34,363 bases of DNA from positions 1-34,363 of the forward strand of contig ONPU01000017.1 in the NCBI GenBank assembly GCA_900319795.1. The letters are read 5' to 3'. The stretch is from an uncultured Eubacteriales bacterium (GTDB lineage: Bacteria > Bacillota > Clostridia > Lachnospirales > Lachnospiraceae). The first letter of the stretch is position 1, and each line of letters begins with the position of its first letter. Below, in pieces: positions 3,692 through 30,747 of the stretch. Under the pieces are notes generated by a model, which did no database searches, was not told where the DNA came from, and worked only from the letters and a program-made list of their open reading frames with translations. A program made the position numbers and the translations under genes.

Positions 3692-3789
3692 CCAGACAGA
3701 GGGGACAGTCCCCGGTGTCTTATGCGAAAAAATGCCGGATTTCCGGCATTTTTCAAAACAAGACACCGGGGACTGTCCCCACTGTCTTA
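3692..3789. repeat. REP-like repeat locus 3, inverted pair enclosing a terminator
   Basis: The units at 3692-3722 and 3760-3789 are inverted and separated by a terminator stem. The block lies between two convergent genes. Its right end (tta, 3787-3789) is the stop codon of the minus-strand aldo/keto reductase. Confidence 0.93.
3728..3753. terminator. Bidirectional intrinsic terminator nested in repeat locus 3
   Basis: AAAAATGCCGGA pairs with TCCGGCATTTTT around a 2-base loop. A- and T-runs are on both sides, suitable for the convergent MFS and reductase genes. Its stem sequence differs from those in loci 2 and 11. Confidence 0.82.
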
Positions 3790-4932
3790 TTTGCCGAATA
3801 CAGCCGCCGCCCGCTCCATGTTCTCCCGGATCGAGACGCCGAAGGGGCAGCGCTTTTCGCAGGCGCCGCATTTTATGCATTCGCCGGCGTGGTGTGCGAG
3901 CGCGGCGTAGTGCTCGCGGACGGTTTCCGGGACCTGGGGCTGCGCCTCGGCGAGGTGCAGGAATTTGGTGACGGAAGCGATGTCGATGAATTGCGGACAT
4001 GGCTCGCAGTGGCTGCAGTACATGCAGTGGCCGACCCAGCTGACGCGCGGGAAGGAGGCGAGCGCAGTGGCGTAGTCCTTTTCTTCGGCGGCTGCGTCGC
4101 AGTATGCGGCGCTTTCCTCGAGCTGGCTCACTGAATGCGCGCCCGCAAGCACGACAGATACTGCCGGACGGGAAAGTGCATAGGAAATGCACTGATTCAC
4201 CGTGAGCGACACGCCTGCGATCTGGTTGCTGCCGAGCAGCTCTCCTCCGGCAAATGCCTTCATAACCGTAATCCCAACGCCCAGCCGCTGGCAGGTCTCG
4301 TAGAGCCTCTGTCTGTCCGGGTCCATATTTGTGAGCTGTTCTTTATAATTCTTGTCGGCCCACAGTTCCTCCACGTCCTCATTTGCGGGCTGGAGGTCGT
4401 AGCATGGATTGACCGAGAACATCAGCACCTCGATCCCGCCCTCGGTGACGGCGCGCTCGGCGACAAGCGGGTTGTGGCTCGACAGGCCGATGTGGCGGAT
4501 CCGACCCTCGGATTTGAGCTGGCGCGCGTAATCGAGGATGCCATTTTTCACGATCGCGTCCCAGTCGCTCATCGCGTCACAGTAGTGGATCATGCCGACG
4601 TCGAGGTAATCGGTGTCGAGGAGCTGCATCATTTCCTCAAAACCTGCCTTCACCTCTTCGAGGTTCCGCGTGCGCAGATATTGGCCATTTTTCCACACAG
4701 AGCAAATGTGCGACTGAATGTAAAATTTCTCACGCCTGCCCTTGAGCGCCCGCCCGACAGCGGCGCGCAGTTCCGGATCGGACGCGTAAAGATCAAAATA
4801 GTTAATTCCGAGTTCTTCCGCCCGGTCGAACATTTTTGCCGTCATGGCATAATTTTCTTCGGTCATGCCCTCGCAACCCATGCCGATTACGCTGGCCGTA
4901 AGGCCGGTATTTCCCAATTCTCTGTATTCCAT
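3787..4932 (-). CDS. Aldo/keto reductase with C-terminal two-cluster ferredoxin domain
   Basis: The 381-residue protein starts MEYRELGNTGLTASVIGMG, the usual aldo/keto reductase N-terminus, and forms a TIM barrel to about residue 290. Two 4Fe-4S binding groups follow: C303xxC306xxC309xxC312P and C352xxC355xxC358xxxC362P. This is the iron-sulfur AKR family common in anaerobes, presumably passing electrons between the clusters and a bound cofactor to reduce a carbonyl. The tetrad is poorly kept: the strand that normally carries the catalytic lysine reads FYIQSH, with Gln/Ser in its place, although an IHYCD histidine is present. Substrate unknown. A GAAAGG site precedes ATG 4932. Its stop codon is supplied by repeat locus 3. 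Confidence 0.85.
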   Translation of the reverse strand: MEYRELGNTGLTASVIGMGCEGMTEENYAMTAKMFDRAEELGINYFDLYASDPELRAAVGRALKGRREKFYIQSHICSVWKNGQYLRTRNLEEVKAGFEEMMQLLDTDYLDVGMIHYCDAMSDWDAIVKNGILDYARQLKSEGRIRHIGLSSHNPLVAERAVTEGGIEVLMFSVNPCYDLQPANEDVEELWADKNYKEQLTNMDPDRQRLYETCQRLGVGITVMKAFAGGELLGSNQIAGVSLTVNQCISYALSRPAVSVVLAGAHSVSQLEESAAYCDAAAEEKDYATALASFPRVSWVGHCMYCSHCEPCPQFIDIASVTKFLHLAEAQPQVPETVREHYAALAHHAGECIKCGACEKRCPFGVSIRENMERAAAVFGK

Positions 4933-5096
4933 ATTGTGCCTTTCTTTGGAAATGGATTCTCAAACAGAATTATTATAACATCATTTTTCGCATTTCCACA
5001 TGATGGACAGAAACGTGATAAAATGTTATTAAACAATCCGCAATCGGATAGGAAATAAAGTGTAACGGCGGAGGATTTTATTTGCCAAAGCCCGGT

Positions 5097-5350: not shown

Positions 5351-5411
5351 CGAGTGTGTCATTTGACAAAACATTTCCAAGATTATCAAAGTTGAAGGAG
5401 GGCCACAGAGA

Positions 5412-6002: not shown

Positions 6003-6574
6003 CGATTTTATTAGATCTATTCCTGACCTTCGTGAAGATCGGGTTATTTACCTTCGGCGGCGGATACGCCATGATCTCACTTATAGAACACTATTGCGTA
6101 GAACAAAAGCAGTGGATCACGCATGATGAAATGATGAATGTCACGGTAATTGCCGAGTCCACCCCGGGACCGATTGCGATCAATTGTGCGACATTTGTCG
6201 GGTATAAGCAGAAGGGATTGATGGGAGCAGCAGCGGCGACGATCGGTGTGGTGCTCCCTTCGTTTTGTATCATTTTCCTGATCTCGAAGTTTTTGGATCA
6301 TTTTTTGGAAATAAGTTGGGTCGCCCACGCATTTATGGGCCTTAAGATCGGTGTCGGCATACTGATTCTGGATGCGGCGATCAGGATGATCAGGAAAATG
6401 CAGACAGGGCTGCTGCCAAATGCGATCTTGTGCAGCGCATTTCTTGCCATGCTGATCATCGATGTGTTTGCGCTGCGGGTATCGACGATCACACTGATGC
6501 TGATCGCGGCGGGGGTCAGCCTGGCGATTTATTTTGCAAAGCAAAATGCCGGGAAGGCAGGGCCTGCGCGATGA
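5999..6574 (+). CDS. Chromate transporter family protein, first half of a short CHR pair
   Basis: This 191-residue membrane protein is a single CHR (chromate_transp) domain. FVKIGLFTFGGGYAMISLIEH near the N-terminus and ESTPGPIAINCATFVGYK around residues 53-70 are the family hallmarks. In Bacillota two short CHR proteins encoded in tandem are thought to work as a heterodimer exporting chromate or a related oxyanion by proton-linked transport. The start is TTG at 5999, inside the stop of the preceding gene, and the stop overlaps the next gene (ATGA). Whether chromate is the real substrate in a gut anaerobe is open. Confidence 0.88.
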   Translation: MTILLDLFLTFVKIGLFTFGGGYAMISLIEHYCVEQKQWITHDEMMNVTVIAESTPGPIAINCATFVGYKQKGLMGAAAATIGVVLPSFCIIFLISKFLDHFLEISWVAHAFMGLKIGVGILILDAAIRMIRKMQTGLLPNAILCSAFLAMLIIDVFALRVSTITLMLIAAGVSLAIYFAKQNAGKAGPAR

Positions 6575-7134
6575 TATACCTTGATCTGTTTTTGGGCTTT
6601 TTGAAGGTCGGCCTGTTTGCCTTTGGAGGAGCATACGCGGCGATCCCTGTGATCAGGGAGGTGGTGCTTTCGTATGGCTGGATTGACGATGAAATGCTGA
6701 CATACATGATCGCGGTCAGTGAAAGCACGCCCGGGTCGATCATGGTGAATCTGGCGACCTATGTTGGCAGTTCGCAAGCGGGTTTCCCGGGGGCGCTGAT
6801 TGCGACGACGGCGGTTGTGCTGCCGGCGTTTGTCATTATTCTGCTCGTCATGATCGTTCTGAAAAAAATACTGAAGCATCCTTATGTACAGGCCATTCTG
6901 GGAGGGCTGAAGCCCTGTATTATCGGGATTATCTTTGCGACCGGCGCCGATATGATTCTTCGGAATTGTTTCGGAAGCGTCGGGGCTTTGGCGGTGAACG
7001 GACCTGCGGTGATGATGACGCTTATTCTGGGCGGCGTTTATTTCGGTTCACGAAAAGTAATGAAAAATGGAATCTCGCCGATCGGCCTCATTGGGCTGTC
7101 GGCTTTGGCGGGGATACTCGTGTATGGAGCATAA
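6571..7134 (+). CDS. Chromate transporter family protein, second half of a short CHR pair
   Basis: The 187-residue protein is homologous to the preceding one: GFLKVGLFAFGGAYAAIPV at the start and SESTPGSIMVNLATYVGSSQ near residue 50. It has about six membrane segments. I place the start at ATG 6571, which overlaps the previous stop by 4 bases, and not further upstream, because that position matches the N-terminus of its partner. The two halves probably form one antiparallel transporter. Its TAA stop (7132-7134) is the first three bases of repeat locus 4. Confidence 0.88.
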   Translation: MIYLDLFLGFLKVGLFAFGGAYAAIPVIREVVLSYGWIDDEMLTYMIAVSESTPGSIMVNLATYVGSSQAGFPGALIATTAVVLPAFVIILLVMIVLKKILKHPYVQAILGGLKPCIIGIIFATGADMILRNCFGSVGALAVNGPAVMMTLILGGVYFGSRKVMKNGISPIGLIGLSALAGILVYGA

Positions 7135-7191
7135 GACAGTGGGGACAGTCCCTGGTGTCTTATAAGACACCAGGGACTGTCCCCACTGTCT
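7132..7191. repeat. REP-like repeat locus 4, inverted pair
   Basis: Two inverted units with a TATA centre form a palindrome of about 60 bp between convergent genes. The left TAA is the stop of the chromate transporter. The inner TTATAA supplies the stop of the minus-strand helicase, which is translated into the repeat. Confidence 0.93.
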
Positions 7192-9064
7192 GGTTCAGGC
7201 GCCCGCGAATGTACTCGCGCATCCCCGGATCTGTGCAGTAGATGTAGCAGCCTTTCATTCCTCTTGTCATGAGCGTGCGGTATGTATTCTTGATGATCTC
7301 GTCCGCGCGCGCCATGGCCTCGGCCGGGTGCTCCTTATACATTTTCTTCAGGCCTTTGACCGACTGATCGGTCGAGGCCCTTTTTGTAAAATCCGTTACC
7401 ACGCGGCCGTTTTCGTAGCGGATGTCGTCGCCCATGATGACGCCGACGTAGTCAAATTCCAGGCCCTGCGTCGTGTGGATGCAGCCGGCTTCGTTGACGG
7501 AAGTGTCACTGAGCGCGTAGATTCCGTCGCCCAGATTCCAGCTCATTTCGAAGTCGCCGATTTTGATGTCGTGGTAGTTCGGGTCGTTCTTTTTGGCCTT
7601 TTCCCATTTCCAGCAGTAGCCGGCCAGGACGCGGGCGCGGTTAGCCGTTTTATTTTTCTCGAAAATGATGTCCCTGACCTCATTCGGATCGTCGCAGAGG
7701 CGCACGTCGTAGTCGAGGCCGTCGAGGGTGAAATTTGCCGTATCCCGGATCTCCAGGAGATCGTCGACCCAGGCAAGGTAGCCGTTGGAACCGTTGCATC
7801 TGAACTGGGAAATGAGTTCCATCTCGATCACCTCGGAGCCTTCTGCCGCGGCCCATTTTTTGATTTCGTCAATGGAGCCGATGTCGGCCATCGTCACCCG
7901 CTGGCTTTCGTCGATGAAAAAGACGGAGCAGGCCGCCGCGTGGATGATTTCCTTGATCTGGTTTTCATTTCCCGTATTTTTCGTGTACTGGCTTCGCTCC
8001 TCGAGCCGGTGGGCCTCGTCGACGATGAGCGTGTGCATCTGGTTGCGGCCGACGCCGACGTAGCAGGCGGAGCCTTTGAACATATTTTCCACGCCGGTGA
8101 GGTGCTTTGTGCCTTTCATTTTCTGCAGATATACCTGGCGGGGAGCAAGATTTTTCGAAACATACTGAACGAACTGGTCCCGCTGCGTGAGCTCCGCCAG
8201 GAGTTGGACGGCGATGACGCTTTTGCCGGTGCCCGGGCCGCCTTTGCAGATGATCGTGCGCTTTTTATGGTCCGTCTGGCACTGTTCGGACAGCTTCAGG
8301 ATTTCTTCGTAAACGACGCGCTGTTCGTCGATCATGGTAAATTCTTCATTTCCGGCCATCATGGAGGCGATGGCATTTTGGAGGCTTTTCGAGGGTTTTA
8401 TTTTCCCATGATCAACTAAATAGAGGACTTTTTTGCGGTCGCCCTTTTTGATCCATTTTTTGATAAATGATTTCAGCTCCCTCGTCTGCGTTCGCGTGAA
8501 TGCCGGCGCTTCGTTGGTGTACAATCTGTACTGCTGATCGTCGAGGGGATCGTTGTCGCGGCGGATGTAATTGTGCAGAAATGCGCACGGCGCGAGGCGG
8601 ATTTCCTGCTCCTGGACGGTGGAATTGTAGTCCTGGATCAGGCGGGCGTACGACCACGCCTGATAGGACGGGTGCACCACTCTTCTCATCGCGTGGCCGG
8701 TATAGGTTTCAACCAGCTCCACAACGGCGTCGGTTGCCTCGACTTTTTCCAGTTTCTGCCACTGCTTCAGCTCCACGATCACCATGCCGGGCTTTTCGTC
8801 TTCGCCGTAACCCGATATCATAAAATCCACCCGCTTGGCGGTCTGCGGGATATTGAACTCAATGGCGACTCCCGCGTCGGCGGGGATCTCGGGGTCATTC
8901 ATGACCATGTACATACGCAGCATGGAGTTTTCCCACGAATTAAATTCGCTTTCGGTGGTATGGCGGCCGAGCTTCTCCAGAATGCTCTGCTCGATCTCAT
9001 AGGCGATCAGGCCGCCTTCAACACTTTGCATAAAATCACTTTTCAGGCCTTCGTAGACTAGCAT
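7160..9064 (-). CDS. PD-(D/E)XK nuclease fused to DUF2075/Schlafen-group helicase
   Basis: The 634-residue protein has two parts. The N-terminal part carries Asp80 and Glu98-Leu-Lys100 (RVDFMISGY, then VIVELKQW), the spacing of a PD-(D/E)XK nuclease core. The C-terminal part is a superfamily 1 type helicase of the DUF2075 group: Walker A GGPGTGKS at 275-282, Walker B LIVDEAH, FFIDESQ, SQFRCNGS, and a late motif HTTQGLEFDYVGVI. Such proteins are presumed to process DNA or RNA, and relatives occur in antiphage loci. The start at 9064 follows a GAAAGG site. The last 11 codons or so (QTVGTVPGVL) and the stop lie inside repeat locus 4, so the natural C-terminus may be around GRLN. Repeat locus 5 forms a large hairpin in its 5' leader. 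Confidence 0.85.
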   Translation of the reverse strand: MLVYEGLKSDFMQSVEGGLIAYEIEQSILEKLGRHTTESEFNSWENSMLRMYMVMNDPEIPADAGVAIEFNIPQTAKRVDFMISGYGEDEKPGMVIVELKQWQKLEKVEATDAVVELVETYTGHAMRRVVHPSYQAWSYARLIQDYNSTVQEQEIRLAPCAFLHNYIRRDNDPLDDQQYRLYTNEAPAFTRTQTRELKSFIKKWIKKGDRKKVLYLVDHGKIKPSKSLQNAIASMMAGNEEFTMIDEQRVVYEEILKLSEQCQTDHKKRTIICKGGPGTGKSVIAVQLLAELTQRDQFVQYVSKNLAPRQVYLQKMKGTKHLTGVENMFKGSACYVGVGRNQMHTLIVDEAHRLEERSQYTKNTGNENQIKEIIHAAACSVFFIDESQRVTMADIGSIDEIKKWAAAEGSEVIEMELISQFRCNGSNGYLAWVDDLLEIRDTANFTLDGLDYDVRLCDDPNEVRDIIFEKNKTANRARVLAGYCWKWEKAKKNDPNYHDIKIGDFEMSWNLGDGIYALSDTSVNEAGCIHTTQGLEFDYVGVIMGDDIRYENGRVVTDFTKRASTDQSVKGLKKMYKEHPAEAMARADEIIKNTYRTLMTRGMKGCYIYCTDPGMREYIRGRLNQTVGTVPGVL

Positions 9065-9087: not shown

Positions 9088-9149
9088 TAAGACAGTGGGG
9101 ACAGTCCCTGGTGTCTGGCCAGACACCAGGGACTGTCCCCACTGTCTTA
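9088..9149. repeat. REP-like repeat locus 5, perfect 62-bp palindrome upstream of the RAYT gene
   Basis: Each 31-bp half starts TAAGACAGTGGGGACAGTCC and ends TGTCTGG at the centre. The two halves are exact reverse complements. It lies between the divergent helicase and RAYT genes, downstream of the minus-strand promoter, so it is transcribed as part of the helicase leader, 23 bases before its start codon. Confidence 0.97.
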
Positions 9150-9314: not shown

Positions 9315-10061
9315 ATGCCTAGAAATGCAAGAAGAAAGAGCTTTACCGGCTATTACCATATTATTGTCCGCGGCGTAGGCAAGCAGGTTATCTTTGAAAA
9401 AAAGATGGACTATCTGGTATTTCTTAAGAAAATGCGCCGATATATACCGGAAGAGAACATTGTTCTTATCGCCTATTGTCTTATGGAGAATCACGTCCAT
9501 TTTCTGCTGCGCGATCCCGAAGATCATATCGCTTCCTTTATGCATAAACTCTGCGGCTCATACGCAATGTATTTCAATAAGAAATATGAACGCTGCGGTC
9601 ATCTCTTCGACGAGCGCTATAAGAGCGAGTGTATCGAGGATGAACGCTACCTTCTGGCTGCATTCCGTTATATTCTTCAAAATCCAGAAAAGGCAGGCAT
9701 TGCCAGAACCGATCAGTACCGCTGGAACAGCTATGCTGAACATGCATATGAAAATGCGTTGACTGACACTTCGCTGATCGATCACCTGATCGGCGGAAAG
9801 GATCAGTTTGAGTCCTTTGTGAAAAAGCCCGTGCCTGAAATAGAACGTGATTTTTGCGACAGAGAAGCGCTGAATGACCGGAACAACCGCATCATTGAGA
9901 CGGTTCTTGGCACTACAGACGCGACCATTGTTAATCGTCTTCCGATTCAGGAACGCGACAGGGTGATCCGGGATTTGCGCAGGAATAATATGTCGATCAG
10001 GACAATTGCTCGGAAAACCGGTATAAGTAAGAATATTGTTGAACGAGTTTGTAAGGGATAA
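9315..10061 (+). CDS. REP-associated tyrosine transposase (RAYT), Y1/HUH family
   Basis: The 248-residue protein opens with RKSFTGYYHIIVRGV, the RAYT N-terminal strand. The HUH metal motif is His60-Val-His62 (MENHVHFLL), and the catalytic tyrosine is probably Tyr119 in RYILQNPEKAG. GHLFDERYKS (95-104) is another conserved RAYT block. The C-terminus (about 200-248) is a helix-turn-helix with SIRTIARKTGISKNIVERV. Family members nick single-stranded REP palindromes and are single-copy, domesticated relatives of IS200/IS605 TnpA. The start is ATG 9315 after AAAGGAGG. The gene has repeat locus 5 on its left and locus 6 at its stop codon, whose TAA belongs to the repeat. No second open frame (TnpB) accompanies it. 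Confidence 0.93.
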   Translation: MPRNARRKSFTGYYHIIVRGVGKQVIFEKKMDYLVFLKKMRRYIPEENIVLIAYCLMENHVHFLLRDPEDHIASFMHKLCGSYAMYFNKKYERCGHLFDERYKSECIEDERYLLAAFRYILQNPEKAGIARTDQYRWNSYAEHAYENALTDTSLIDHLIGGKDQFESFVKKPVPEIERDFCDREALNDRNNRIIETVLGTTDATIVNRLPIQERDRVIRDLRRNNMSIRTIARKTGISKNIVERVCKG

Positions 10062-10090
10062 GACAGTGGGGACAGTCCCTACTGTCTTAT
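10059..10090. repeat. REP-like repeat locus 6, single unit at the RAYT stop
   Basis: One 31-bp unit with perfect 9-base inverted ends (TAAGACAGT and ACTGTCTTA). Its first TAA is the RAYT stop codon. It separates the RAYT gene from the YdjM-like gene by only about 55 bases. Confidence 0.93.
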
Positions 10091-10114: not shown

Positions 10115-10702
10115 ATGATGTCCAAAACGCACATAGTGGTCGGTATGGCAGCAGCACTGACGGTGCTTGCGCCACCCGACTTGAAAACGGCGCTGCCTGT
10201 GATCGCAGGCAGTGCTGTTGGCAGCCTGATCTGTGATCTGGACTGCAGGTCGCAGCCATCTGTGAAGGACGCGTTTACCGGCCGTTTGATCGTGGGCGGT
10301 ATTATTTTGCTGACTATCATTCTGGATTACTTTTGGGGAACGGGTATCTGGATGTATCTGCTGAATAAAAATAAGGAGAGGCAGATCGTTGGGATACTGT
10401 TGTTTCTGATCCTCTGCACATTTGTCAGGAACTCCGGGCACAGGGGCTTTTCACATTCACTTCTGGCGCTCTTGCTGGAGGCGTCAGTATTAATGCTGGT
10501 GGTGAGAGAAGTGGTTCCGGCGTTCGCGGTGGCATTTCTTTCGCATATCATCCTGGATTTGCTGAACAAGAGGCCGATTCAGGTTTTCTTTCCATGGAGG
10601 AAGGGATTTTGCAGCCGGCTGTTTTATGCGGACAGGACAGCTGATAAAATTATTCTGGGAATCGGAAGCGCATGGTTGGTGGCGGCGTTGGCTGCGATAT
10701 AA
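10115..10702 (+). CDS. YdjM-like membrane-bound metal-dependent hydrolase (DUF457)
   Basis: The 195-residue membrane protein starts MMSKTHIVVGMAAALTVL and contains NSGHRGFSHSLLALLLEA (about residues 109-126) and LSHIILDLLNKRPIQVFFPW. These histidine and aspartate blocks mark the YdjM family (PF04307), membrane proteins thought to be metal-dependent hydrolases. The E. coli member is SOS-induced. About five hydrophobic segments are visible. The ribosome site is modest (GGGAG, 12 bases upstream of 10115, or 15 bases upstream of ATG 10118). The TAA stop (10700-10702) is the first three bases of repeat locus 7. Substrate unknown. Confidence 0.83.
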   Translation: MMSKTHIVVGMAAALTVLAPPDLKTALPVIAGSAVGSLICDLDCRSQPSVKDAFTGRLIVGGIILLTIILDYFWGTGIWMYLLNKNKERQIVGILLFLILCTFVRNSGHRGFSHSLLALLLEASVLMLVVREVVPAFAVAFLSHIILDLLNKRPIQVFFPWRKGFCSRLFYADRTADKIILGIGSAWLVAALAAI

Positions 10703-10761
10703 GACAGTGGGGACAGTCCCCGGTGTCTGGCCAGACACCAGGGACTGTCCCCACTGTCTTA
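10700..10761. repeat. REP-like repeat locus 7, 62-bp inverted pair
   Basis: The palindrome is perfect except for one mismatch (CCCCGG versus CCAGGG). Its left TAA is the stop of the YdjM-like gene. Its right end is 4 bases before the AAGGAG site of the acetyltransferase. Confidence 0.95.
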
Positions 10762-10780: not shown

Positions 10781-11287
10781 ATGAAAATCAGACATTCCAC
10801 TGAACGGGACCTTGAACGGATCATGGAAATCTATGGCTGCGCCAGAAAGTTCATGGCGGAGCACGGCAATCCCAACCAATGGGGGCCTACGAACTGGCCT
10901 CCTAAGGAACTGATCCGGAGCGACATCTTCAATGGCAACAGCTACGTGTGCGTCAATGACGATGGCGCGATCATCGGTACATTTTACTTTATCCATGGAA
11001 ATGACATAGAGCCGACCTATCGGAACATCACAGACGGCGCGTGGCTGGATGAAAGCCCGTATGGTGTGGTGCATCGCATCGCTGCGGATGGGTCCGAACG
11101 GGGGATTGGGGCTTTTTGCATTAACTGGGCTATTGAGCAGTGCGGCCATTTGCGGATTGATACTCACGGTGACAACATTGTCATGCAAAATCTACTTAAA
11201 AAGCTTGGCTTTACGCACTGCGGGACCATTTATGTGGAGGAGGATCATTATCCACGCCTGGCTTTCGAGAGAACAATAAGACAGTAG
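10781..11287 (+). CDS. GNAT family N-acetyltransferase
   Basis: The 168-residue protein starts MKIRHSTERDLERIMEIYGCAR, a typical GNAT N-terminus. The acetyl-CoA region appears as VVHRIAADGSERGIGAFCINWAIE (about 98-120), a degenerate Q/RxxGxG/A loop, followed by LRIDTHGDNIVMQNLLKKLGF, the GNAT motif that packs on CoA. It should transfer an acetyl group to a small-molecule or peptide amine. The substrate is not predictable. AAAGGAG lies 9 bases upstream of ATG 10781. The reading frame misses the repeat TAA and ends at a TAG inside repeat locus 8 (11285-11287). That TAG exists only because this copy has CAGTAGGG instead of CAGTGGGG, so the last three or four residues come from the repeat. Confidence 0.88.
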   Translation: MKIRHSTERDLERIMEIYGCARKFMAEHGNPNQWGPTNWPPKELIRSDIFNGNSYVCVNDDGAIIGTFYFIHGNDIEPTYRNITDGAWLDESPYGVVHRIAADGSERGIGAFCINWAIEQCGHLRIDTHGDNIVMQNLLKKLGFTHCGTIYVEEDHYPRLAFERTIRQ

Positions 11288-11338
11288 GGACTGTCCCCAG
11301 TGTCTGGCCAGACACCAGGGACTGTCCCCACTGTCTTA
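11277..11338. repeat. REP-like repeat locus 8, 62-bp inverted pair
   Basis: Palindromic pair between convergent genes, with a few differences in the left unit. The right end (tta, 11336-11338) is the stop codon of the minus-strand GH5 gene. The left unit supplies the TAG of the acetyltransferase. Confidence 0.95.
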
Positions 11339-12430
11339 CATCCAACGCTCCTGCCAGCAGCGGCGCAGGTCCCAGCTGTCTTTCCACTCTTCGTCCATGT
11401 GGAGGGAGAGGTCCCGTCTTAACTGGTAGTTCCAGTAGATGTAGCCTGCGCTGACGGACCAGGCTTTCTTCTGGATGCCTGCCAGCCAACGGAAGCGGCG
11501 GGTCTTTTCTTTTTCGGTGTCCGCGGCGAGGGCGAATTTGTTGGAAATGCACCATTCGCCTACGATCACCGGCGTGTAGCGGGCCGCCTTTTGGACGAGC
11601 CTGCGCTGGGAATTGATGTAGAGCCGATAGACCCATTGCTTGTGGATCGGTACGAAATTTTCCATCGCGAAGACGTAGATGTGGGTGTCCAGCGCGACAT
11701 TTTCCATGCCTTCTTTGACGAAGAAGTCCTTCCAGGCGCCCAGGCGGAAGCCGTCGTGGAAGACGATCACTTTTTCCTTCGGCAGAATTGCGCGGAGGCG
11801 GCGATAAGCGTCCCGGTAGAACTGCTTGAGGAACGGCATGGGCACGTGCCCGGAGCCTTTGGCTTCCTCTTTGTCCGCCGCCTTGCCGGTGGACGGGGCG
11901 CTGATGTAGACGAGCCAGCTGATGGGCTCGTTGAGAACCTCAATTCCGTAAAGGCCGGGGCGATCGCCGTAGCGCTCGGCGAGGCGCTCGAGGACGGTAA
12001 GCTCGAATTCCACTTCTTTCGGATTTTTGCACCATTTGCATACGCCGGTCAGGCCGCCGTTGTCGTAGCCGTTCTGGCTGCCGGGACAGGTGTGCAGGTC
12101 GATCATGATCTGAATGCCGTATTTTTCCGCCCAGTCAAATGCCTTGTCCAGATATTCCGCACAGCCAATGAAAGGCGGGCGGTCTCCGAAAATGAAGTAC
12201 GGCACCGGAATTCTCGCCAGATTGATCCCGTGGGCCGCCAGTTCCGCAAAGTCCTCCTCGGTGACGTAGGTGTCACGGTGCTGCTTCATGCGGGCCGCGA
12301 GCGCGTCGGGATCCATTTTGCGGACAAGCCACGTTTCATCCTCCACGCCGATATCCTCAAAGAGGTCCGGCTCCATCCATTTTTCAAGTACCAGCCAGTT
12401 GCCGAGATTGGCGCCCTTAATTTTTTCCAT
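11336..12430 (-). CDS. Intracellular glycoside hydrolase family 5 (exo-beta-1,3-glucanase-like)
   Basis: The 364-residue enzyme starts MEKIKGANLGNWLVLEKWMEP, typical of the GH5 subfamily that includes exo-1,3-beta-glucanases. The catalytic acid is Glu168 in VLNEPIS and the nucleophile Glu292 in VIVGEWC. HGINLARIPVPYFIF and IMIDLHTCPGSQNG are further family blocks. No signal peptide is present, so it probably acts in the cytoplasm on imported oligosaccharides (beta-glucans). GGAGG lies 7 bases before the ATG. The stop is TAA at the edge of repeat locus 8. No transporter or sugar regulator gene is next to it. Confidence 0.88.
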   Translation of the reverse strand: MEKIKGANLGNWLVLEKWMEPDLFEDIGVEDETWLVRKMDPDALAARMKQHRDTYVTEEDFAELAAHGINLARIPVPYFIFGDRPPFIGCAEYLDKAFDWAEKYGIQIMIDLHTCPGSQNGYDNGGLTGVCKWCKNPKEVEFELTVLERLAERYGDRPGLYGIEVLNEPISWLVYISAPSTGKAADKEEAKGSGHVPMPFLKQFYRDAYRRLRAILPKEKVIVFHDGFRLGAWKDFFVKEGMENVALDTHIYVFAMENFVPIHKQWVYRLYINSQRRLVQKAARYTPVIVGEWCISNKFALAADTEKEKTRRFRWLAGIQKKAWSVSAGYIYWNYQLRRDLSLHMDEEWKDSWDLRRCWQERWM

Positions 12431-14139: not shown

Positions 14140-14418
14140 ATGGTAGTTGTAATTAATGATGACAGGGTAACGGATGTGGAGGCGTATCTTCCGATCGCAA
14201 AGGGATTCGCGGAGGATTCGGTTCAGAATGAAGAGGGCTGCATCAGCATGGAGGTGCTGGTGGATCCGAAGGTGCCGGGAAGAGTGCTGTATTTGTCGCA
14301 TTTTGAAAGTGAAGAGGCATTCATTAAGAGTACGTCCGGCGAGATCTTCCACAAATGGCTTCCGAAGCTGGGGCAGTACTTCGTTTCGGCGGAGGACCAC
14401 ATCTTCGAAGTGAAATAA
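14140..14418 (+). CDS. Antibiotic biosynthesis monooxygenase (ABM) family protein
   Basis: This 92-residue protein matches the small ABM/YgiN fold: a first strand with MVVVINDDRV, a helix with FAEDSVQNEEGCISMEVLVD, then RVLYLSHFESEEAFIKSTSGEIFHKWLPKL. ABM proteins are dimeric ferredoxin-like folds. Several oxidise quinols without a cofactor, and others are heme-degrading or of unknown role. An AAGGAG site lies 8 bases before the ATG. The TAA stop (14416-14418) is the first three bases of repeat locus 9. Confidence 0.8.
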   Translation: MVVVINDDRVTDVEAYLPIAKGFAEDSVQNEEGCISMEVLVDPKVPGRVLYLSHFESEEAFIKSTSGEIFHKWLPKLGQYFVSAEDHIFEVK

Positions 14419-14477
14419 GACAGTGGGGACAGTCCCTGGTGTCTGGCCAGACACCAGGGACTGTCCCCACTGTCTTA
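14416..14477. repeat. REP-like repeat locus 9, perfect 62-bp palindrome
   Basis: Exact inverted pair, identical to locus 5. Its left TAA is the stop of the ABM gene. A T-rich run follows on the right, so the transcript could also terminate here. Confidence 0.97.
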
Positions 14478-15286: not shown

Positions 15287-16030
15287 TTGCTAAAGAAAAG
15301 GAATATTTCCACAATTGTCATCGCCGGGATATTTCTCCTCGGAGTCGGGATCATCATCTACCCCTGGCTGAGCGACTATGTCAATAAGCTCCACGCCAGC
15401 CGGGCGATCGCGGGCTACTCCGACGCGGTATCCAACATCGATCCGGAGGAAATTCAAAGGATGTGGAAAGAAGCGGTGGACTACAATAAGAGCCTTCTGG
15501 AGCGACCGAACCGGCTGAAGCTGTCGAAAGAAGAGGAAGAAGAATACAACAAGATCCTGAATGTGACCGGCACGGGCGTGATGTCTTACGTGGAGATCCC
15601 GAAGATTCACACGAACATGCCTATTTATCACGGGACCGACGAGGCGGTCCTGCAGGTCGCGATCGGGCATCTGGAAGGGACGTCGGTTCCGGTAGGCGGT
15701 GAGTCGACCCATGTGTTTATAACCGGTCACCGGGGCCTTCCGAGCGCGAAGCTCTTCACCGACATCGACAGGCTGGAAAAGGGCGACCGCTTCTACATCG
15801 AAACCCTCGGCATCCGTCTGACCTACGAAGTGGATCAGATCAAGACCATTCTTCCGACTGAGCTGAGCAATGTGAGAATCGACAAAGGAAAAGATTACGT
15901 GACCCTGGTCACCTGCACACCGTACGGAATCAATACCCACCGGCTCCTGGTGCGCGGAAAACGGATTCATGAGGATGGGGAAATAACCCCTCTCGACGAG
16001 GACTTCCTCACCTCCTTCGGAAAGAAATGA
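15287..16030 (+). CDS. Class C-like sortase, first of a tandem pair
   Basis: The 247-residue protein has an N-terminal membrane anchor (about 8-27) and a sortase catalytic domain. The triad is His148 in TGHRG, Cys210 in LVTCTPYG and Arg223 in HRLLVRG. The TPYG after the cysteine and the DEAVLQVAIGHLEGTSVPVGG block fit class C (pilus-assembly) sortases, which join pilin subunits through a lysine. The C-terminal membrane helix usual in that class is missing. The best start is TTG 15287, six bases after AGGAG. The stop overlaps the ATG of the second sortase. No pilin with an LPxTG motif lies in this window, so the substrates must be elsewhere. Confidence 0.88.
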   Translation: MLKKRNISTIVIAGIFLLGVGIIIYPWLSDYVNKLHASRAIAGYSDAVSNIDPEEIQRMWKEAVDYNKSLLERPNRLKLSKEEEEEYNKILNVTGTGVMSYVEIPKIHTNMPIYHGTDEAVLQVAIGHLEGTSVPVGGESTHVFITGHRGLPSAKLFTDIDRLEKGDRFYIETLGIRLTYEVDQIKTILPTELSNVRIDKGKDYVTLVTCTPYGINTHRLLVRGKRIHEDGEITPLDEDFLTSFGKK

Positions 16031-16833
16031 AAAAGAAGAAAAAGAGAGTCAGCATTTCCACGATCATACTGGTGGGTATTATGATCGTAGGAATCGGGGT
16101 CATGGCGTACCCCTGGATCAGCGACTACATCAACCGTCTCCACGCCAGCCGCGCCGTTGCGGGCTACACGGAAGCGGTTTCCGGAATGGATCCCGAGGAA
16201 ATCGTCCGCCTGTGGAAACAGGCCTCCGATTACAACAAGAGCCTGCTGAAAAAGCAGGACCGCTTCACCCTGACCAAAAAGGAGGAGCAGGAATACAACG
16301 ACATCCTCAACATCAACGGGCCGGGCATCATGGCCTACATCGAGATTCCGAAGATTGACGTCACGCTGCCCATTTACCACGGGACGGACGAGGCGGTGCT
16401 GCAGATCGCGATCGGGCATTTTATGGGAAGCACCATGCCGGTCGGCGGGCCGAACACCCATATGATCATCACCGGCCACCGCGGCCTCCCGAGCGCGAAG
16501 CTCTTCACGGATCTCGACAAAATGGAAAAGGGCGACCGCTTCTACATCCAGACCCTGACCATCCGCCTGACCTATGAGGTGGACCAGATCACCACGGTTC
16601 TGCCGGACCAGGTCACTTCTTTGGAAATAGAGAAAGACCAGGACTACGTCACCATGGTCACGTGCACGCCCTACGGCATCAACACGCACCGCCTCCTCGT
16701 CCGCGGCAAACGGATCCGCGAACCCGGTGAAATCATGCCCGACGAAGAAGGCTTCGTGGAATACATGAAGGCAAAAGAGAAAGAAAAGGCTGAGCAGGCG
16801 GCTGAGCAGGCGGCCGCCGACAGTGAGCAGTAG
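16027..16833 (+). CDS. Class C-like sortase, second of a tandem pair
   Basis: The 268-residue protein is a close paralogue of the preceding gene, with a near-identical layout: an N-terminal anchor, DYINRLHASRAVAGYTEAVS, His151 in TGHRG, Cys213 in MVTCTPYG and Arg226 in HRLLVRG. It starts within the stop of its neighbour (ATGA overlap), the mark of a local duplication kept as one operon. The C-terminus ends in an Ala/Glu/Gln-rich tail (EQAAEQAAADSEQ) rather than a membrane helix. Differences in the residues around the active site could give the two enzymes different substrates, for example one polymerising and one anchoring. Confidence 0.88.
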   Translation: MKKKKKRVSISTIILVGIMIVGIGVMAYPWISDYINRLHASRAVAGYTEAVSGMDPEEIVRLWKQASDYNKSLLKKQDRFTLTKKEEQEYNDILNINGPGIMAYIEIPKIDVTLPIYHGTDEAVLQIAIGHFMGSTMPVGGPNTHMIITGHRGLPSAKLFTDLDKMEKGDRFYIQTLTIRLTYEVDQITTVLPDQVTSLEIEKDQDYVTMVTCTPYGINTHRLLVRGKRIREPGEIMPDEEGFVEYMKAKEKEKAEQAAEQAAADSEQ

Positions 16834-17145: not shown

Positions 17146-17305
17146 AAGGGGCCCTCTTGCTGGATAGAACTATGCGCTGCCGGCAAGAACGCTGTACAGT
17201 GAGCGGAGTGACAAAACTGTGATTTTGAAAATGTTACACTTACGCCATCAGAAACGACACACTCACATCATTGTTGAAAATAAATGATCTAAGGAGGATT
17301 TGAAA

Positions 17306-18086: not shown

Positions 18087-18158
18087 ACAAATAAGACAGT
18101 GGGGACAGTCCCTGGTGTCTGGCCAGACACCAGGGACTGTCCCCACTGTCTTATTTGT
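18087..18158. repeat. REP-like repeat locus 10, perfect palindrome extended to 72 bp
   Basis: The 62-bp core (18092-18153) is identical to locus 5. The flanks ACAAA and TTTGT extend the symmetry to 72 bp. It follows the lipoprotein gene and could terminate it. The left flank TAACAAATAAGACAG is shared with locus 11. Confidence 0.97.
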
Positions 18159-22753: not shown

Positions 22754-23725
22754 ATGAATGCCAAAATATCTGTTCACTCAGTAAAGAAGGTTTTTGTAGG
22801 CATCATTTCACTGATATTCCTGGTCAGCGAGACGATGCTCTTATTTGGTGTGCGCGCCGAAGCTGCTGTGACTGCGGGTGCGGCTGGCAGTGCGAGCGCA
22901 AGCGCGGCAGGCAGTGTGAGCGCAGGTGCGGCAGGCAGTGCAAGCGCAAGCGCGGCTGGTAACGCAAGCGTAAGCTCAAAAGGAAGTGCGAGCGCAAGCG
23001 CCACTGTAAAACAGACCGGCAAATGGGTCAGAAAAAACGGCTATTATTACTATTACCGGAACAAGAAAAAACTGAAAAACGGCATTTTCCGGATCGGTCA
23101 AAAAAAGTACTGTTTTGACAAAAAAGGGAGGCAGCGGACCGGCTGGCGGAAAATCGGAAAGTACAGATATTATTTCAGTATCCGCAACGGAAAAAACGGC
23201 TATATGCTCGCGGGCAGGAAGGTGGATGGCATTTCCCTGAAAAAGAACGGGCGCGCGGCGCCGAAGGGGGAGAGAGCGCGGAAAAAGCTGCCGATTCTGA
23301 TCAAGGTCCAGCAAATGACTGACAAAATCGTCAAGCCCACCATGTCGAAGTCGAAAAAGCTGAAAATTTGCTTTGAATATGTCAAAAACCATTTCAGCGG
23401 ATATGACATTCATGACCTGGGTCACATGCGGCAGAACTGGGAACTGGAGTACGCGGCATTTATGCTGAATAACGGGTTCGGGGACTGTTACTGCTATGCG
23501 GCGACATTTGCCTATTTTGCAAATGCGATTGGCTATTCGCACGTGATGTCGGTCAATTCCGGCGGGCATGGCTGGACCGAAATTAACGGGAAATTTTACG
23601 ACCCCAATTGGGCCAATGTCATCGGAACGGACAAATGCTACGCGGTCCCGGCCTCCCTGTCCGGCGTCGCGGGGCGGCCGAAGTGGGGAAGCTACGGGCT
23701 GTATTATGCGGATTGTGATAAGTGA
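22754..23725 (+). CDS. Secreted transglutaminase-like protein with cell-wall-binding-type repeats
   Basis: The 323-residue protein has a signal peptide (about 1-38). Residues 44-83 are five 8-residue Ala/Ser/Gly repeats, then a choline-binding-like region (GKWVRKNGYYYYYRN, TGWRKIGKYRYYF). The C-terminal transglutaminase/protease core has Cys245 in FGDCYCYAATFAYFANAIGY, a His in GGHGWTEI and an Asp in FYDPNW, so a complete Cys-His-Asp triad. Such proteins cross-link or cleave surface peptides. A GGAGGGGGTG site precedes ATG 22754. It sits 21 bases after the cyclase gene, suggesting c-di-GMP genes and a surface enzyme share a transcript. Confidence 0.82.
   Translation: MNAKISVHSVKKVFVGIISLIFLVSETMLLFGVRAEAAVTAGAAGSASASAAGSVSAGAAGSASASAAGNASVSSKGSASASATVKQTGKWVRKNGYYYYYRNKKKLKNGIFRIGQKKYCFDKKGRQRTGWRKIGKYRYYFSIRNGKNGYMLAGRKVDGISLKKNGRAAPKGERARKKLPILIKVQQMTDKIVKPTMSKSKKLKICFEYVKNHFSGYDIHDLGHMRQNWELEYAAFMLNNGFGDCYCYAATFAYFANAIGYSHVMSVNSGGHGWTEINGKFYDPNWANVIGTDKCYAVPASLSGVAGRPKWGSYGLYYADCDK
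22883..23002 (+). repeat. Five tandem 24-bp coding repeats
   Basis: Five 24-bp units (8 codons, pattern xGSxSxSA) encode the Ala/Ser/Gly stalk of the transglutaminase-like protein. The DNA units are near-identical, so the stalk length may vary between strains by slippage. Confidence 0.8.
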
Positions 23726-24400: not shown

Positions 24401-24463
24401 GCGCGGGAAATTTCCCTGGCAGGTGACTTCACTGGCGAGTGACATCACCGGCGGCGTGAAGAA

Positions 24464-24494
24464 GTGCACCAAAGGTGCCAGACCCCTGTGGTGC
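24464..24494. repeat. Second repeat family, intergenic copy
   Basis: A 31-bp unit with ends TGCACCA and TGGTGCA around GGTGCCAGACCCCT. The other copy is at 28580-28611 inside a gene. It has the same design as the main family (31 bp, 7-base inverted ends) but unrelated sequence. Confidence 0.75.
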
Positions 24495-24590
24495 AGTTCA
24501 CGAAAAATACAGATCTTTTTATGCAAAAATCGGATATAATGGAAGTGGTAGCGTTAACTCTTGTTAAATAAGGATCGGGAGGATTTACGA

Positions 24591-25625: not shown

Positions 25626-25723
25626 TAAGACAGTGGGGACAGTCCCTTGTGTCTTATCGCGAAAGACGCCGATAATTCGGCGTCTTTTCGCGTAAGACAA
25701 CGGGGACTGTCCCCACTGTCTTA
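25626..25723. repeat. REP-like repeat locus 11, inverted pair enclosing a terminator
   Basis: The left unit (25626-25656) and right unit (25693-25723) flank a terminator stem almost identical to the one in locus 2. It lies between convergent genes. Its right tta is the stop codon of the minus-strand membrane-protein gene. Confidence 0.94.
25658..25692. terminator. Bidirectional intrinsic terminator nested in repeat locus 11
   Basis: CGCGAAAGACGCCGA pairs with TCGGCGTCTTTTCGCG (one bulged base), with A- and T-runs on opposite sides. It serves both convergent genes. Confidence 0.82.
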
Positions 25724-26482
25724 TTTAATGAAGGAAAGCAGGCTTTTTCTTGCGCTTTCCATGCTTTCGTTCTTGTCTTTGAAGTTGGAGACGCGCCGGA
25801 GCGTTCCGTGGAAGTAGCCGCCCATGGATTCGAAGCGCTTCTTCAGCGAATGTTTGGTCTCGCCGATGTCGGTCTTGAGCTGGCTTGTCCGCCTTACGGT
25901 GCCCTCGACGATGGACGACATGTTGTGGTTGAATTCGTCCTGAGCTTCGATGACGAACTGGTCGAAATGGTGCAGCACCGTGACCGTCAGGGTCAGGTCC
26001 GCTATCAGGAGGGACAGGAGGATCAGGGAGAAGAGTTCGATCATAAGCGGCTGGAACTGGTTCACCTGGCTTTCGACAAATGGCGCGATGACGTACACCA
26101 CCAGAAGTCCGCCGAATCCGAAGCCGAGGCTTGTGAAGAGGCTGATTCTTCCCTGAAGATTAAACGGCAAATTGCTGTAATCCCACCAGACAGCGTGGAA
26201 CAATTTTTCCAGAATCCAGGAAGTAGCGAATTCCAGAATGGCGCTGCCGATGACGGAAATGACAAAAACCTGCCACGTTTTCATCTCGACTCCGTTGCTG
26301 TGAACGAGATACAGTACGGCGGACATCGCGATGGCGCCGATGCCGTAGATCGGGCAGACCGGGCCGAACAGGAAGCCGCGGTTTTTCCATTGGCCGTTTG
26401 TGATGGTGCAGTAGGTGGTTTCGTAAATCCACCCGAGCAGGCCGTAGATAATAAACAGGACTACGATTTTGCTTATAATCAT
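25721..26482 (-). CDS. Putative ABC transporter permease-like membrane protein (CmpB family, PF06541)
   Basis: The 253-residue protein starts MIISKIVVLFIIYGLLGWIYETTY, and has about five membrane segments. NRGFLFGPVCPIYGIGAIAM (about 34-53) and LEFATSWILEKLFHAVWWDYS are hallmarks of the CmpB family. The C-terminal third is a charged cytoplasmic tail. Its function is not established, and the ABC-permease label comes only from family naming. I place the start at 26482, where its ATG overlaps the stop of the HD gene (ATGA). A longer frame upstream lies inside that gene. The TAA stop is the edge of repeat locus 11. Confidence 0.82.
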   Translation of the reverse strand: MIISKIVVLFIIYGLLGWIYETTYCTITNGQWKNRGFLFGPVCPIYGIGAIAMSAVLYLVHSNGVEMKTWQVFVISVIGSAILEFATSWILEKLFHAVWWDYSNLPFNLQGRISLFTSLGFGFGGLLVVYVIAPFVESQVNQFQPLMIELFSLILLSLLIADLTLTVTVLHHFDQFVIEAQDEFNHNMSSIVEGTVRRTSQLKTDIGETKHSLKKRFESMGGYFHGTLRRVSNFKDKNESMESARKSLLSFIK

Positions 26483-26955
26483 TTCTTTCGTTTCCTCCGG
26501 AACAGGGTTTCGTGCAGGGAGCAGCATTTGTCCGCGACACAGACGATCCAGGCCTCCTTTGAGTCGGGGAGCTTTGTCAGGTTCAGCGGCCACATGTGGC
26601 TTCGGATGACCTTTGATGTTTCCTCATCAACATGAAAATATTTTTTCGCGTTCTCCTCCGCCTTCTCCGCGTGGGCGAAACCGTGAAGCTCCTTTGAGCC
26701 GTTGCCTTTGTGCCAGTCGTAGAGGTAAAAATCGTGCAGCATCGCGCCTTTCAAAAGAGTGTTGAGATCTGATTTGAGTGAAAGGGCTTTGTCAATGTTG
26801 TAGCTCATTTTCGCGACATTTTCGCAGTGCTCGTAGGTGGAGACGTCGCCGTGCTGGACGAAGTTTTTCATTTCCTGAACGCGCTCATCCGACCGGATGT
26901 CGGCAAGGATGTCATTTACTTCTTTATAGTCTTTTTTTTCAGTCTTTTTTTTCAT
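26479..26955 (-). CDS. HD-domain phosphohydrolase
   Basis: The 158-residue protein carries the HD metal motif: His in STYEHCENVAKMSYNID (about 40-55), the pair HD in GAMLHDFYLYDWH (about 71-83) and further His residues in HGFAHAEKAEENA. HD proteins hydrolyse phosphates of nucleotides or related molecules, and this small type is common in Bacillota without known substrate. The long start (ATG 26955) has no good ribosome site. ATG 26871 (MKNFVQHGD) after CAGGAA is an alternative. It overlaps the CmpB-like gene by 4 bases, so the two are co-translated. Confidence 0.83.
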   Translation of the reverse strand: MKKKTEKKDYKEVNDILADIRSDERVQEMKNFVQHGDVSTYEHCENVAKMSYNIDKALSLKSDLNTLLKGAMLHDFYLYDWHKGNGSKELHGFAHAEKAEENAKKYFHVDEETSKVIRSHMWPLNLTKLPDSKEAWIVCVADKCCSLHETLFRRKRKK

Positions 26956-28242: not shown

Positions 28243-28284
28243 AATATCATATTTCAGGCAGAGACAGCACATTTTCAAAAGGCA

Positions 28285-30747
28285 ATGAACGATAAACAGA
28301 CAAATCTTATAAAGGAATTTCACAGAATCCGGGCGCAGGCGGATGCGATCAGCGTGCCGGCTGTGGATGAGGCGAAAATTCGGGCGGACCTGATCGCGCG
28401 GATGAAAAAGGATGCCGAAAAAGCGTCCGAAAACGAGGCGATCAAGGGCTGCTTTAAGAACGGGCAGCGGCCGAAGAAGATTGTGATCGACCGCTATAAG
28501 CAGACGGACGAGTACAGGGCCCGCTATGAGGAGCTGCTCCACAATGACAGCAATTACGCGATGATTCTGGAGTGGGAAAGTGCACCACAGGTGCCAGACC
28601 CCTCTGGTGCATTCGGGGAGATGTTGGCGAAGAAGGTGCGGGCGGCGCAGCTGCAGGCGCGGAGGAATGCGAGGAAGGGCGCGGCGGCGAATATGCGGCG
28701 CGTGGCGCAGCAGTATCTGGGGAGCGTGTCGGTGTCGAAGTATTTTCGGCAGAACCGGGCGAAGGTGTTTCGGAAGGCGCAGGAGGCGATCGAGGATTTT
28801 ATACGGGAGGATCTGACGAGCCTCGTGATTCCGGTGGCGAAGGACGACCGGATGATCTTCGGGTATGAGCCGCTGAGCGCGGAAAACTGGGATTTTGCGT
28901 TTGACGCGGGATTTACATTTATATTGGAGGAAATATCGACGCAGCTTGGGCGCGCGGGGATCGGGATTCCGTACGCGCTGGTGGTGTCGGTGGCGACGGA
29001 TGATCCGTTTATTGCGGAATTGATGGCGTCGGAGGACACCGGCGATTTTACGGCGGACCGGCTGCACCGGCTCGCCGAGGGGGTCACGCATGACCAGAAT
29101 GAGCTGCAGTTCCTCGGCAAGAGATTTACGCGGCGCAGGGTGCAGGAGCTGCTGGCGGAGAATCCTCATTTTGCGGATCTGATTGCGTGGGTGCGCGAGA
29201 CACAGGCGCGGCGGGAGCATATCAGGAGCGGCATTTTGGAGGAAATTCCGGCGCATTATCCGGATCTGTTTCCGCTTGCTCGGGAAATGAAACGCCGCTT
29301 CATTATCCATATAGGACCGACCAATTCGGGCAAGACTTACGACGCGATCGAGGCGCTGAAAAATGCGGAGAGCGGGGTCTATCTCGCGCCGCTGAGGCTG
29401 CTTGCCTACGAACAATACGAAAATCTGAACCGGGCCGGCGCGGTCTGCACGCTGGTTACGGGCGAAGAGCGGCGTGTGGTGCCCGGGGCATGGATCCGGA
29501 GTTCGACCATTGAGATGCTGGATTTCAAGCAATGGTACGACGTCGCGGTCATTGACGAAGCCCAGATGATGACGGACCTGAGCCGCGGCGGGGCCTGGAC
29601 TGCGGCACTGATGGGCGTGCGCGCGGAGGAGATTCACGTGTGTGCCGCGCCGTCCGCGAAAAATCTGCTGATCCGGCTGATCGGCGAGTGCGGGGATACA
29701 TTTTCCGTGCAGTATCATGAGAGGAAGACGCCGCTCATTTTCGAGAAGAAGGAATTTCATTTTCCGAAAAGTGTGCGGCCGGGCGACGCGCTGATTGTAT
29801 TTTCCAGAAAAGACGTGCACGCTGTTGCGGCCGAACTGCAGCGCGAGGGCCGAAAATGTTCGATTATCTACGGCGCTTTGCCGTACGACGTGCGGTACGA
29901 GGAGGCCGGGAAATTCCGTGAGGGGGAAAATGACATCGTCGTCGCGACGGACGCGATCGGCATGGGCCTTAATATGCCGGTGCGAAGGATTGTATTTTTA
30001 CAGGAAGAAAAATTTGACGGCCGCGAGAAGAGGCCGCTGCTTGCCGGCGAGATCCAGCAGATTGCGGGGCGCGCGGGGCGGTTCGGCATTTACGATGAGG
30101 GCTATGTCAACGCGCTCTACGACCGGGACGAGATCGAGGACGCGCTGTACCGGACGCTGCCGGACGATGAGGAGGCGGTGATTGCATTTCCGGAGGAACT
30201 GCTGCGGATCGACGCGCCGTTGAGCGAAATTATGAAGCAGTGGGCGTCGATGGAGGTGATCGAGGGCTTCCGGCGGGACCTGTCGGAGACCGAGATTATG
30301 CTGGCGCAGCAGCTGGAGGAAATTTCCGACGATAAATATCTGATTTATCGGTTTGTGACGATGGCATTTGACGAGGGAAATGCGGAGCTGCTCGCGATCT
30401 GGCGCGAAATGTTCGAGTACGAAAGCGGGATGCTGACATTTCCGTACGAGCAGTACCTGCCCGTGAAGATTCCGTCTTCGGGGAGCGCCGACGACCTGCC
30501 GAAGCTCGAGGCGGCGTTCCACGTGTGCGACCTGCTTTACGCGTACATGGACCGGTTCGACCACCCGGACGGCATCCAGGATGTGCTGAACTGCAAGCAG
30601 AATCTGTCCGAGGCAATCATGAAGATCCTCGACAAGCAGGAGCTCGGGAGCCGGAAATGCCGCGAGTGCGGGCGGCCGCTTCCGTGGATTTATCCGTACG
30701 GGATTTGTGACCATTGCTTCAGGAGGAAGCAGAGGAGACGGAGATAA
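28285..30747 (+). CDS. SUV3-like DExH ATP-dependent RNA helicase with zinc ribbon tail
   Basis: The 820-residue protein has an N-terminal region (to about 330) without known domain. A helicase core follows: motif I GPTNSGKT (344-351), motif II DEAQM (424-), LIVFSRKDVHAVAAELQ, an IVVATDAIGMGLNMPV motif V and QIAGRAGRFG motif VI. GPTNSGKT and DEAQM are the signature of SUV3, the mitochondrial RNA-degradosome helicase. Bacterial members exist in some Clostridia. The C-terminus ends in a four-cysteine zinc site (Cys792, 795, 808, 811). It should unwind RNA (or RNA/DNA) for decay. The start has only a weak AAAGG. Residues about 99-109 are encoded by a copy of the second repeat family. The TAA stop is the first three bases of repeat locus 12. 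Confidence 0.88.
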   Translation: MNDKQTNLIKEFHRIRAQADAISVPAVDEAKIRADLIARMKKDAEKASENEAIKGCFKNGQRPKKIVIDRYKQTDEYRARYEELLHNDSNYAMILEWESAPQVPDPSGAFGEMLAKKVRAAQLQARRNARKGAAANMRRVAQQYLGSVSVSKYFRQNRAKVFRKAQEAIEDFIREDLTSLVIPVAKDDRMIFGYEPLSAENWDFAFDAGFTFILEEISTQLGRAGIGIPYALVVSVATDDPFIAELMASEDTGDFTADRLHRLAEGVTHDQNELQFLGKRFTRRRVQELLAENPHFADLIAWVRETQARREHIRSGILEEIPAHYPDLFPLAREMKRRFIIHIGPTNSGKTYDAIEALKNAESGVYLAPLRLLAYEQYENLNRAGAVCTLVTGEERRVVPGAWIRSSTIEMLDFKQWYDVAVIDEAQMMTDLSRGGAWTAALMGVRAEEIHVCAAPSAKNLLIRLIGECGDTFSVQYHERKTPLIFEKKEFHFPKSVRPGDALIVFSRKDVHAVAAELQREGRKCSIIYGALPYDVRYEEAGKFREGENDIVVATDAIGMGLNMPVRRIVFLQEEKFDGREKRPLLAGEIQQIAGRAGRFGIYDEGYVNALYDRDEIEDALYRTLPDDEEAVIAFPEELLRIDAPLSEIMKQWASMEVIEGFRRDLSETEIMLAQQLEEISDDKYLIYRFVTMAFDEGNAELLAIWREMFEYESGMLTFPYEQYLPVKIPSSGSADDLPKLEAAFHVCDLLYAYMDRFDHPDGIQDVLNCKQNLSEAIMKILDKQELGSRKCRECGRPLPWIYPYGICDHCFRRKQRRRR
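28580..28611. repeat. Second repeat family, copy inside the helicase coding sequence
   Basis: The ends TGCACCA/TGGTGCA and the centre GGTGCCAGACCCCT match the copy at 24464-24494 with only two differences visible. It is read through in frame as SAPQVPDPSGA. Confidence 0.78.

Follow-up and report, generated by a model that had tools for sequence, protein, structure and literature searches.

Why should the stop codons of so many genes fall on the edge of one and the same repeat? This question is raised by a stretch of DNA from an uncultured Lachnospiraceae bacterium (assembly GCA_900319795.1, contig ONPU01000017.1, positions 1 to 34,363 of the forward strand), which comprises 34,363 nucleotides (nt), is hereafter called the window, and carries 14 elements of a palindromic repeat family together with a RAYT gene. 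An initial annotation, made from the letters of the window, had claimed that the outer TAA of the repeat is the stop codon of eight genes, and had offered two explanations: mobilisation targets TAA stops, or repeats that replace gene ends are retained for the stop and the hairpin that they carry. In this study, the distances between repeat ends and stop codons were scored in the window and elsewhere in the genome, and the genes concerned were compared with orthologues. Stop sharing by repeat ends is a genuine genome-wide habit. We consider it fairly probable that it results mainly from insertion near gene ends combined with selection on reading frame, in a REPIN-like family probably mobilised by the RAYT, whereby the TAA of the element replaces or coincides with the native stop.

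Repeat ends and stop codons

The repeat unit is 31 nt long and nearly palindromic (YM-AGACA-nnn-GGGACWGTCCC-nnn-TGTCT-KR; for example TAAGACAGTGGGGACAGTCCCTGGTGTCTTA). Because the palindromic unit begins with (A)TAAGACA, a TAA can be read inward from both outer ends of an element. A unit may stand alone, be joined to an inverted partner (62 nt) or be paired with it across an inner hairpin like GACGCCG...CGGCGTC (98 nt), and units also line up in rows at 31-nt spacing; the usual element is an inverted pair with a length of 62 or 98 nt. The exact unit pattern has 111 matches in the own genome, a 2.0-Mb draft with a completeness of 82%. In the window, TAAGACAG is present in 25 copies where 0.56 would be expected.

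The sample scored consisted of the window and 27 stretches from the rest of the genome, chosen around the listed part of 163 and 122 counted repeat matches; it held at least 60 elements with at least 115 cores, and units diverging beyond the pattern tolerance may have escaped detection. At 115 of the 120 repeat ends, AGAC is preceded by TA, CC, CA or TC; the other five are cut by a foreign end and were excluded. Gene ends were called by a simple codon-score gene caller, and the RAYT and YdjM genes, which it overlooked, were entered by hand on their Pfam match. No gene was called towards 54 of the 115 ends, and 61 are gene-facing.

The coordinates bear out all eight stops named in the initial annotation as lying exactly on an outer TAA, and each of the eight proteins has a Pfam match. 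On the plus strand, the chromate transporter gene (6430-7134) stops at 7132-7134 on the 62-nt element 7132-7193, the RAYT gene (9315-10061) at 10059-10061 on the single unit 10059-10089, the YdjM-like gene (10115-10702) at 10700-10702 on the 62-nt element 10700-10761, the ABM gene (14140-14418) at 14416-14418 on the 62-nt element 14416-14477, and the SUV3-like helicase gene (28285-30747) at 30745-30747 on the 62-nt element 30745-30806. On the minus strand, the aldo/keto reductase gene (3787-4932) stops at 3787-3789, the right end of the 98-nt element 3692-3789; the GH5 gene (11336-12430) stops at 11336-11338 on the 62-nt element 11277-11338, and the CmpB-like gene (25721-26593) at 25721-25723 on the 98-nt element 25626-25723.

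These eight are among 17 gene-facing ends in the window, where seven further stops lie before the repeat (at -3, -5, -5, -13, -18, -42 and -147, the last belonging to a weakly scored open reading frame of 83 amino acids) and two, additional to those of the initial annotation, lie inside it. The distribution of distances is not flat outside the window either: offset 0 was found at 18 of the 44 gene-facing ends there, along with 19 stops at most 20 nt upstream, two further away and five inside. Over all 61 ends, 26 stops are at offset 0, 24 at -3 to -18, four further and seven inside. Among the 24 near-upstream stops, eight are at -3 and six at -5; all of the latter face a CC-type end, and four read TGAAA followed by CCAGAC. 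Ends at offset 0 are necessarily of the TAA type, and where a TAA end has its stop anywhere from -20 to within the repeat, offset 0 accounts for 26 of 39 (18 of 29 outside the window). Where a TAA-type end enters a gene, it does so in frame in 26 of 29 cases (binomial probability 4.5e-10 against one third).

Could abundant repeats in a compact genome have struck stop codons by accident? The median same-strand gap is only 23 nt (91 element-free gaps), and in 11 of the 13 converging gene pairs with an element, taking the element away would leave at most 7 nt between the genes, which would then mostly overlap. Nearness to stops is thus expected; since the genome is so compact, it is the sharing of the stop, not the closeness, that is remarkable. 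When real TAA-ended elements were placed in a simulation close to 120 gene ends free of elements, at sites preceded by A (position -1), offset 0 made up 10-18% over the insertion ranges tried, compared with an observed 18 of 29 for ends of the TAA type beyond the window (binomial probability 1e-9 at 13.1% and 1.5e-7 at 17.8%). Together with the in-frame bias, this makes accident highly improbable as an explanation, and the earlier statement that the sharing is too frequent for chance holds.

Orthologues and the origin of the shared stops

The unit pattern, with at most one mismatch, is absent from 39 of the 41 other genomes of the genus, so orthologues there can serve as empty sites. The two genomes with a match are G054, which has a one-mismatch variant, and G004, in which one contig is near-identical to the own DNA (98-99%); this contig probably represents DNA of the same species within that bin and was excluded from the length comparison. 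At the DNA level, similarity to the main genus matches is about 65-82%.

Orthologues with a protein identity of at least 55% were usable for nine of the 26 offset-0 genes and none for the other 17 among the loci compared; 50 orthologue rows were analysed after two more with a length difference above 15 residues had been removed. Compared with its best orthologue, the protein of this genome has the same length in five genes, is shorter in four (by 2, 3, 8 and 29 residues) and is longer in none. The difference of 29 residues is an outlier, as the same gene differs from other orthologues by -1, +1, +9 and +2. In the alignments of 11 genes, homology reaches the end or nearly so, and normal C-termini are trimmed by zero to few residues. 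The CmpB-like protein is trimmed by about 15 residues relative to orthologues that are 48-50% identical, and several genes fall 2-15 codons short of their orthologues. Outside the nine, low-identity orthologues gave differences of +3 to +8 for GH5, +14 to +23 for CmpB, +12 for a gene at locus L062, +7 for a 210-residue protein at L083, 0 and -1 for a 364-residue protein and +8 and -3 for a 304-residue protein at L084. The matches of the aldo/keto reductase at 24-26% identity are other proteins, and a 234-residue reading frame at L085 (-8 to +1) is not one of the 26.

The stops of the orthologues bear directly on the first explanation of the initial annotation, by which the mobilising enzyme targets a TAA stop or a TAAGA site at gene ends and the TAA predates the insertion. 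The 50 rows contain 32 TGA, 16 TAA and one TAG, one row being cut by a contig end, and TAA is the stop in 52 of 130 own element-free genes; TAAGA occurs in four of 50 rows and in six of 120 element-free genes. These relatives are distant and stop codons drift, but without enrichment of TAA or TAAGA the orthologues give no sign that a TAA regularly preceded the repeat. Targeting of this kind is further opposed by the 24 elements that sit directly behind an intact native stop and by the several shortened genes. The five of nine genes with the same length as their best orthologue are in its favour.

A candidate target motif, TRARA, stands directly before 12 of the 115 ends and zero to two times at shifted positions. 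Ten of the 12 cases are behind a called gene and six are the stops at -5, so the motif is partly a stop followed by A; the A at -1 is present at every kind of repeat end. With 12 of 115 ends, TRARA was rejected as a general target motif and is retained as a hint. On balance, targeting of TAA stops appears improbable.

Near-natural C-termini and the lack of TAA or TAAGA enrichment point instead to insertion at 3' ends, with a stop that the repeat provides or overlaps, and to preferential survival of copies in a compatible frame. In this scheme, the RAYT encoded at 9315-10061 would mobilise the palindromic elements, which would insert in the short gaps at gene 3' ends, up to about 20 nt past the stop or within the final codons. 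Copies landing behind the stop would leave the native stop intact. A copy that hits these codons or the stop itself would be retained when its TAA is in frame, because the cost to the protein is then just a few residues and termination stays clean, and out-of-frame copies, which append a repeat-encoded tail, would mostly be lost. We infer selection rather than target choice.

Several points weigh against this combination of insertion and selection. Under selection alone, the simulated ratio of offset-0 to downstream copies was 0.22-0.87, and the observed ratios are 26:24 for all ends and 26:10 for TAA ends; a selection-only model expects fewer survivors at offset 0 than downstream unless genes tolerate insertions as deep as about 45-60 nt. 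This excess over every simulation speaks for targeting, as do the TRARA cases, the TAAGAG found exactly at the homologous stop in the chromate-transporter and ABM orthologues, and the TAAGAT at the same place in one of seven orthologues of a 201-residue protein at L083; at these sites a native stop may have served as target. In two of the 50 rows it is the orthologue that is shorter, by one residue each. The length control is small (four unlinked genes with usable orthologues), and the empty-site comparison rests on orthologues from the genus.

The second explanation of the initial annotation, retention for both a stop and a terminator-like hairpin, divides in two. Its stop part agrees with the lengths (four shorter, five equal, none longer) and with the frame bias. 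The terminator part is weak: a hairpin formed in all four elements folded, and a U-rich stretch, as expected of an intrinsic terminator, follows only 15 of the 115 ends. The hairpins themselves are strong. RNA folds of four window elements gave -29 to -84 kcal/mol, with no shuffle equally stable; one 62-nt element folds at -63 kcal/mol, and the element 14416-14477 with its flanking bases forms an unbroken hairpin of 32 base pairs. A putative role at gene ends, as terminator, in protection of the mRNA 3' end or in ribosome stalling of the kind reported for Escherichia coli REPs, could retain the elements, with stop sharing as a by-product. The stable folds and the 24 of 61 gene ends within 20 nt before an element are consistent with such a role, as is the statement in PMC12306157 that REPs of E. 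coli influence translation when they lie at most 15 nt from a stop. Compact gene spacing alone, however, brings elements close to stops, and the scarcity of U-rich stretches speaks against termination; we regard this alternative as unlikely, though worth keeping in mind. As matters stand, takeover of 3' ends by an element that carries its own stop fits better than targeting of TAA.

The RAYT gene and other features of the window

The RAYT gene (9315-10061, plus strand, 248 amino acids) starts after AAAGGAGG, its N-H-V-H motif can be read from the DNA, and it is the single Y1_Tnp match in the draft genome. It lies between repeat units, with the 62-nt element 9088-9149 upstream and the single unit that supplies its stop downstream, as expected of a cognate RAYT. 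The repeat has many dispersed short copies, mostly outside genes, and two units in inverted orientation form a hairpin in the 62-nt and 98-nt forms. Judged by its sequence, it is a REPIN-like family around a single RAYT gene. The tetranucleotide GTAG was not found as an end tag at the 115 uncut ends. Pairing of flanks beyond the unit, suggested by the elements at 10059 and 18092, showed no excess over shuffled flank pairs. A target-site duplication of TA was rejected because the CC...GG ends are complementary rather than direct copies; equal element ends (34 of 55 versus 28.5 after shuffling) are a weak signal.

The better matches to the RAYT are 38-46% identical and come mostly from metagenome-assembled genomes of Lachnospiraceae and other Clostridia. 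Eighty loci of relatives were kept and 47 of them inspected (L242 to L291 minus L273, L282 and L288); other palindromes were recognised in 27 of the 47. In 15 of the inspected loci the RAYT gene stops at -4 to +6 relative to a palindrome arm, and five of these stops are inside the arm, four being TGA (TGAGTCA, TGACAG) and one TAA. At L248, TGACAG was seen at the RAYT stop by eye, though the locus was assigned to a later unit.

Another genome, G058 (L352-L383), has at least two palindrome families with a common GGGACGGTTCT core and distinct ends, CCAAAATC and GATGACA. The first end contains no stop and cannot share one, so only distances are informative: of 17 gene-facing ends, 11 have the stop 64-289 nt away, four have it at most 20 nt before the end, and two genes read in to +31. 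In the GATGACA family, the TGA of the end serves three distinct genes as stop, and the stops of another four lie within 8 nt; this comparison is small, and its rows include inner ends and duplicates (L249 overlaps L359). It is conceivable, though we think it rather unlikely, that RAYT-mobilised families independently evolved stop-reading ends that ease settlement on gene termini (TAG in GTAG REPs, TAA here, TGA in the relatives ending in TGACAG or TGAGTC), or that some physical mechanism directs insertion to the 3' ends of genes. Three relatives (G024, G054 and G036) have different palindromes with the same GGGACAGTCCC core. At locus L073 of the own genome (G000:C7:35015) there are three tandem units and at L089 (G004:C202) one, a copy-number difference of 62 nt between loci that are 98-99% identical.

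The remaining elements of the window comprise a single unit at 730-760, a 98-nt element of two inverted units and an inner hairpin at 2227-2324, which the TGA of the upstream gene adjoins at offset -3, and a 62-nt element at 18092-18153, 15 nt past the end of gene 17300-18076 (plus strand; offset -18). A four-unit row occupies 32174-32297 behind gene 30828-32171, whose stop is at -5 (TGAAA before CCAGAC), and a unit at 34256-34276, with an upstream stop at -5 (TGAGA before CCAGAC), is truncated after GGGACTGTCCC by a foreign end resembling an insertion sequence. A 634-residue protein is encoded by gene 7160-9064 (minus strand), which enters the element 7132-7193 and ends on the TAA of its inner unit, 31 nt inside; the GNAT gene 10781-11287 (plus strand) converges with the GH5 gene and has its TAG stop 8 nt inside the element 11277-11338. 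Both acquire C-terminal residues encoded by the repeat. In the 98-nt elements at 2227-2324, 3692-3789 and 25626-25723, runs of A and T flank the inner hairpin, an arrangement that resembles a two-way terminator; one of the three was folded.

An identical foreign end (TTCCTATCATGTCAAGCCC...) breaks units just past GGGACWGTCCC at 34277-34363 and at four contig ends of the own genome (L062, L066, L071 and L079), and similar foreign ends in relatives adjoin other sequence (L226, L240 and L241). The appearance is that of a multi-copy insertion sequence with the repeat as its target. A second small repeat, with the ends GTGCACCA...TGGTGCA, has two window copies at 24453-24495 and 28569-28611. Two 300-nt stretches, 15292-15591 and 16041-16340, are 68% alike, lie 749 nt apart and are perhaps a tandem gene duplication, and a 24-nt tandem repeat lies at 22854-22973 within the open reading frame 22754-23725.

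Comparison with known systems

The repeat described here offers a countable case of mobile palindromes becoming tolerated in compact genomes by way of a stop codon at their edge. It implies that annotated C-termini beside such repeats can be partly derived from the repeat, and it links the end sequence of a repeat family to its distance from genes in a testable manner.

REPINs, reportedly described together with RAYTs by Bertels and Rainey in 2011, offer one comparison. Such systems and the present family share inverted unit pairs, many dispersed copies and a RAYT gene flanked by units; the present unit, however, lacks the GTAG tag, comes close to being a palindrome on its own and can also be arrayed in tandem at 31-nt spacing. 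RAYTs bear a histidine-hydrophobic-histidine motif, and REPs lie very near the stop codon of rayt or follow it immediately, as stated in the relevant passages of Nunvar et al. (2010, PMC2817692). In the E. coli work cited in PMC12306157, as in the present case, a hairpin lies close behind the stop (at most 15 nt in E. coli); there, however, the passages concerned describe the REPs downstream of the stop and do not mention sharing of it, whereas the present repeat shares the stop.

The GTAG-tagged REPs, as portrayed in the pertinent parts of Di Nocera et al. (2013, PMC3733652), are short palindromes, single or dimeric, near gene 3' ends, and in two species most conv-REPs lie less than 20 bp from both genes. 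The present repeat is likewise single or dimeric and near gene 3' ends, but its end is TAAGACA, with a TAA and no GTAG tag; relative to that account, the present analysis adds the frame bias and the empty-site comparison. A comparable stop-sharing habit is already described for related repeats, and the family in the window is a new, TAA-ended case of it.

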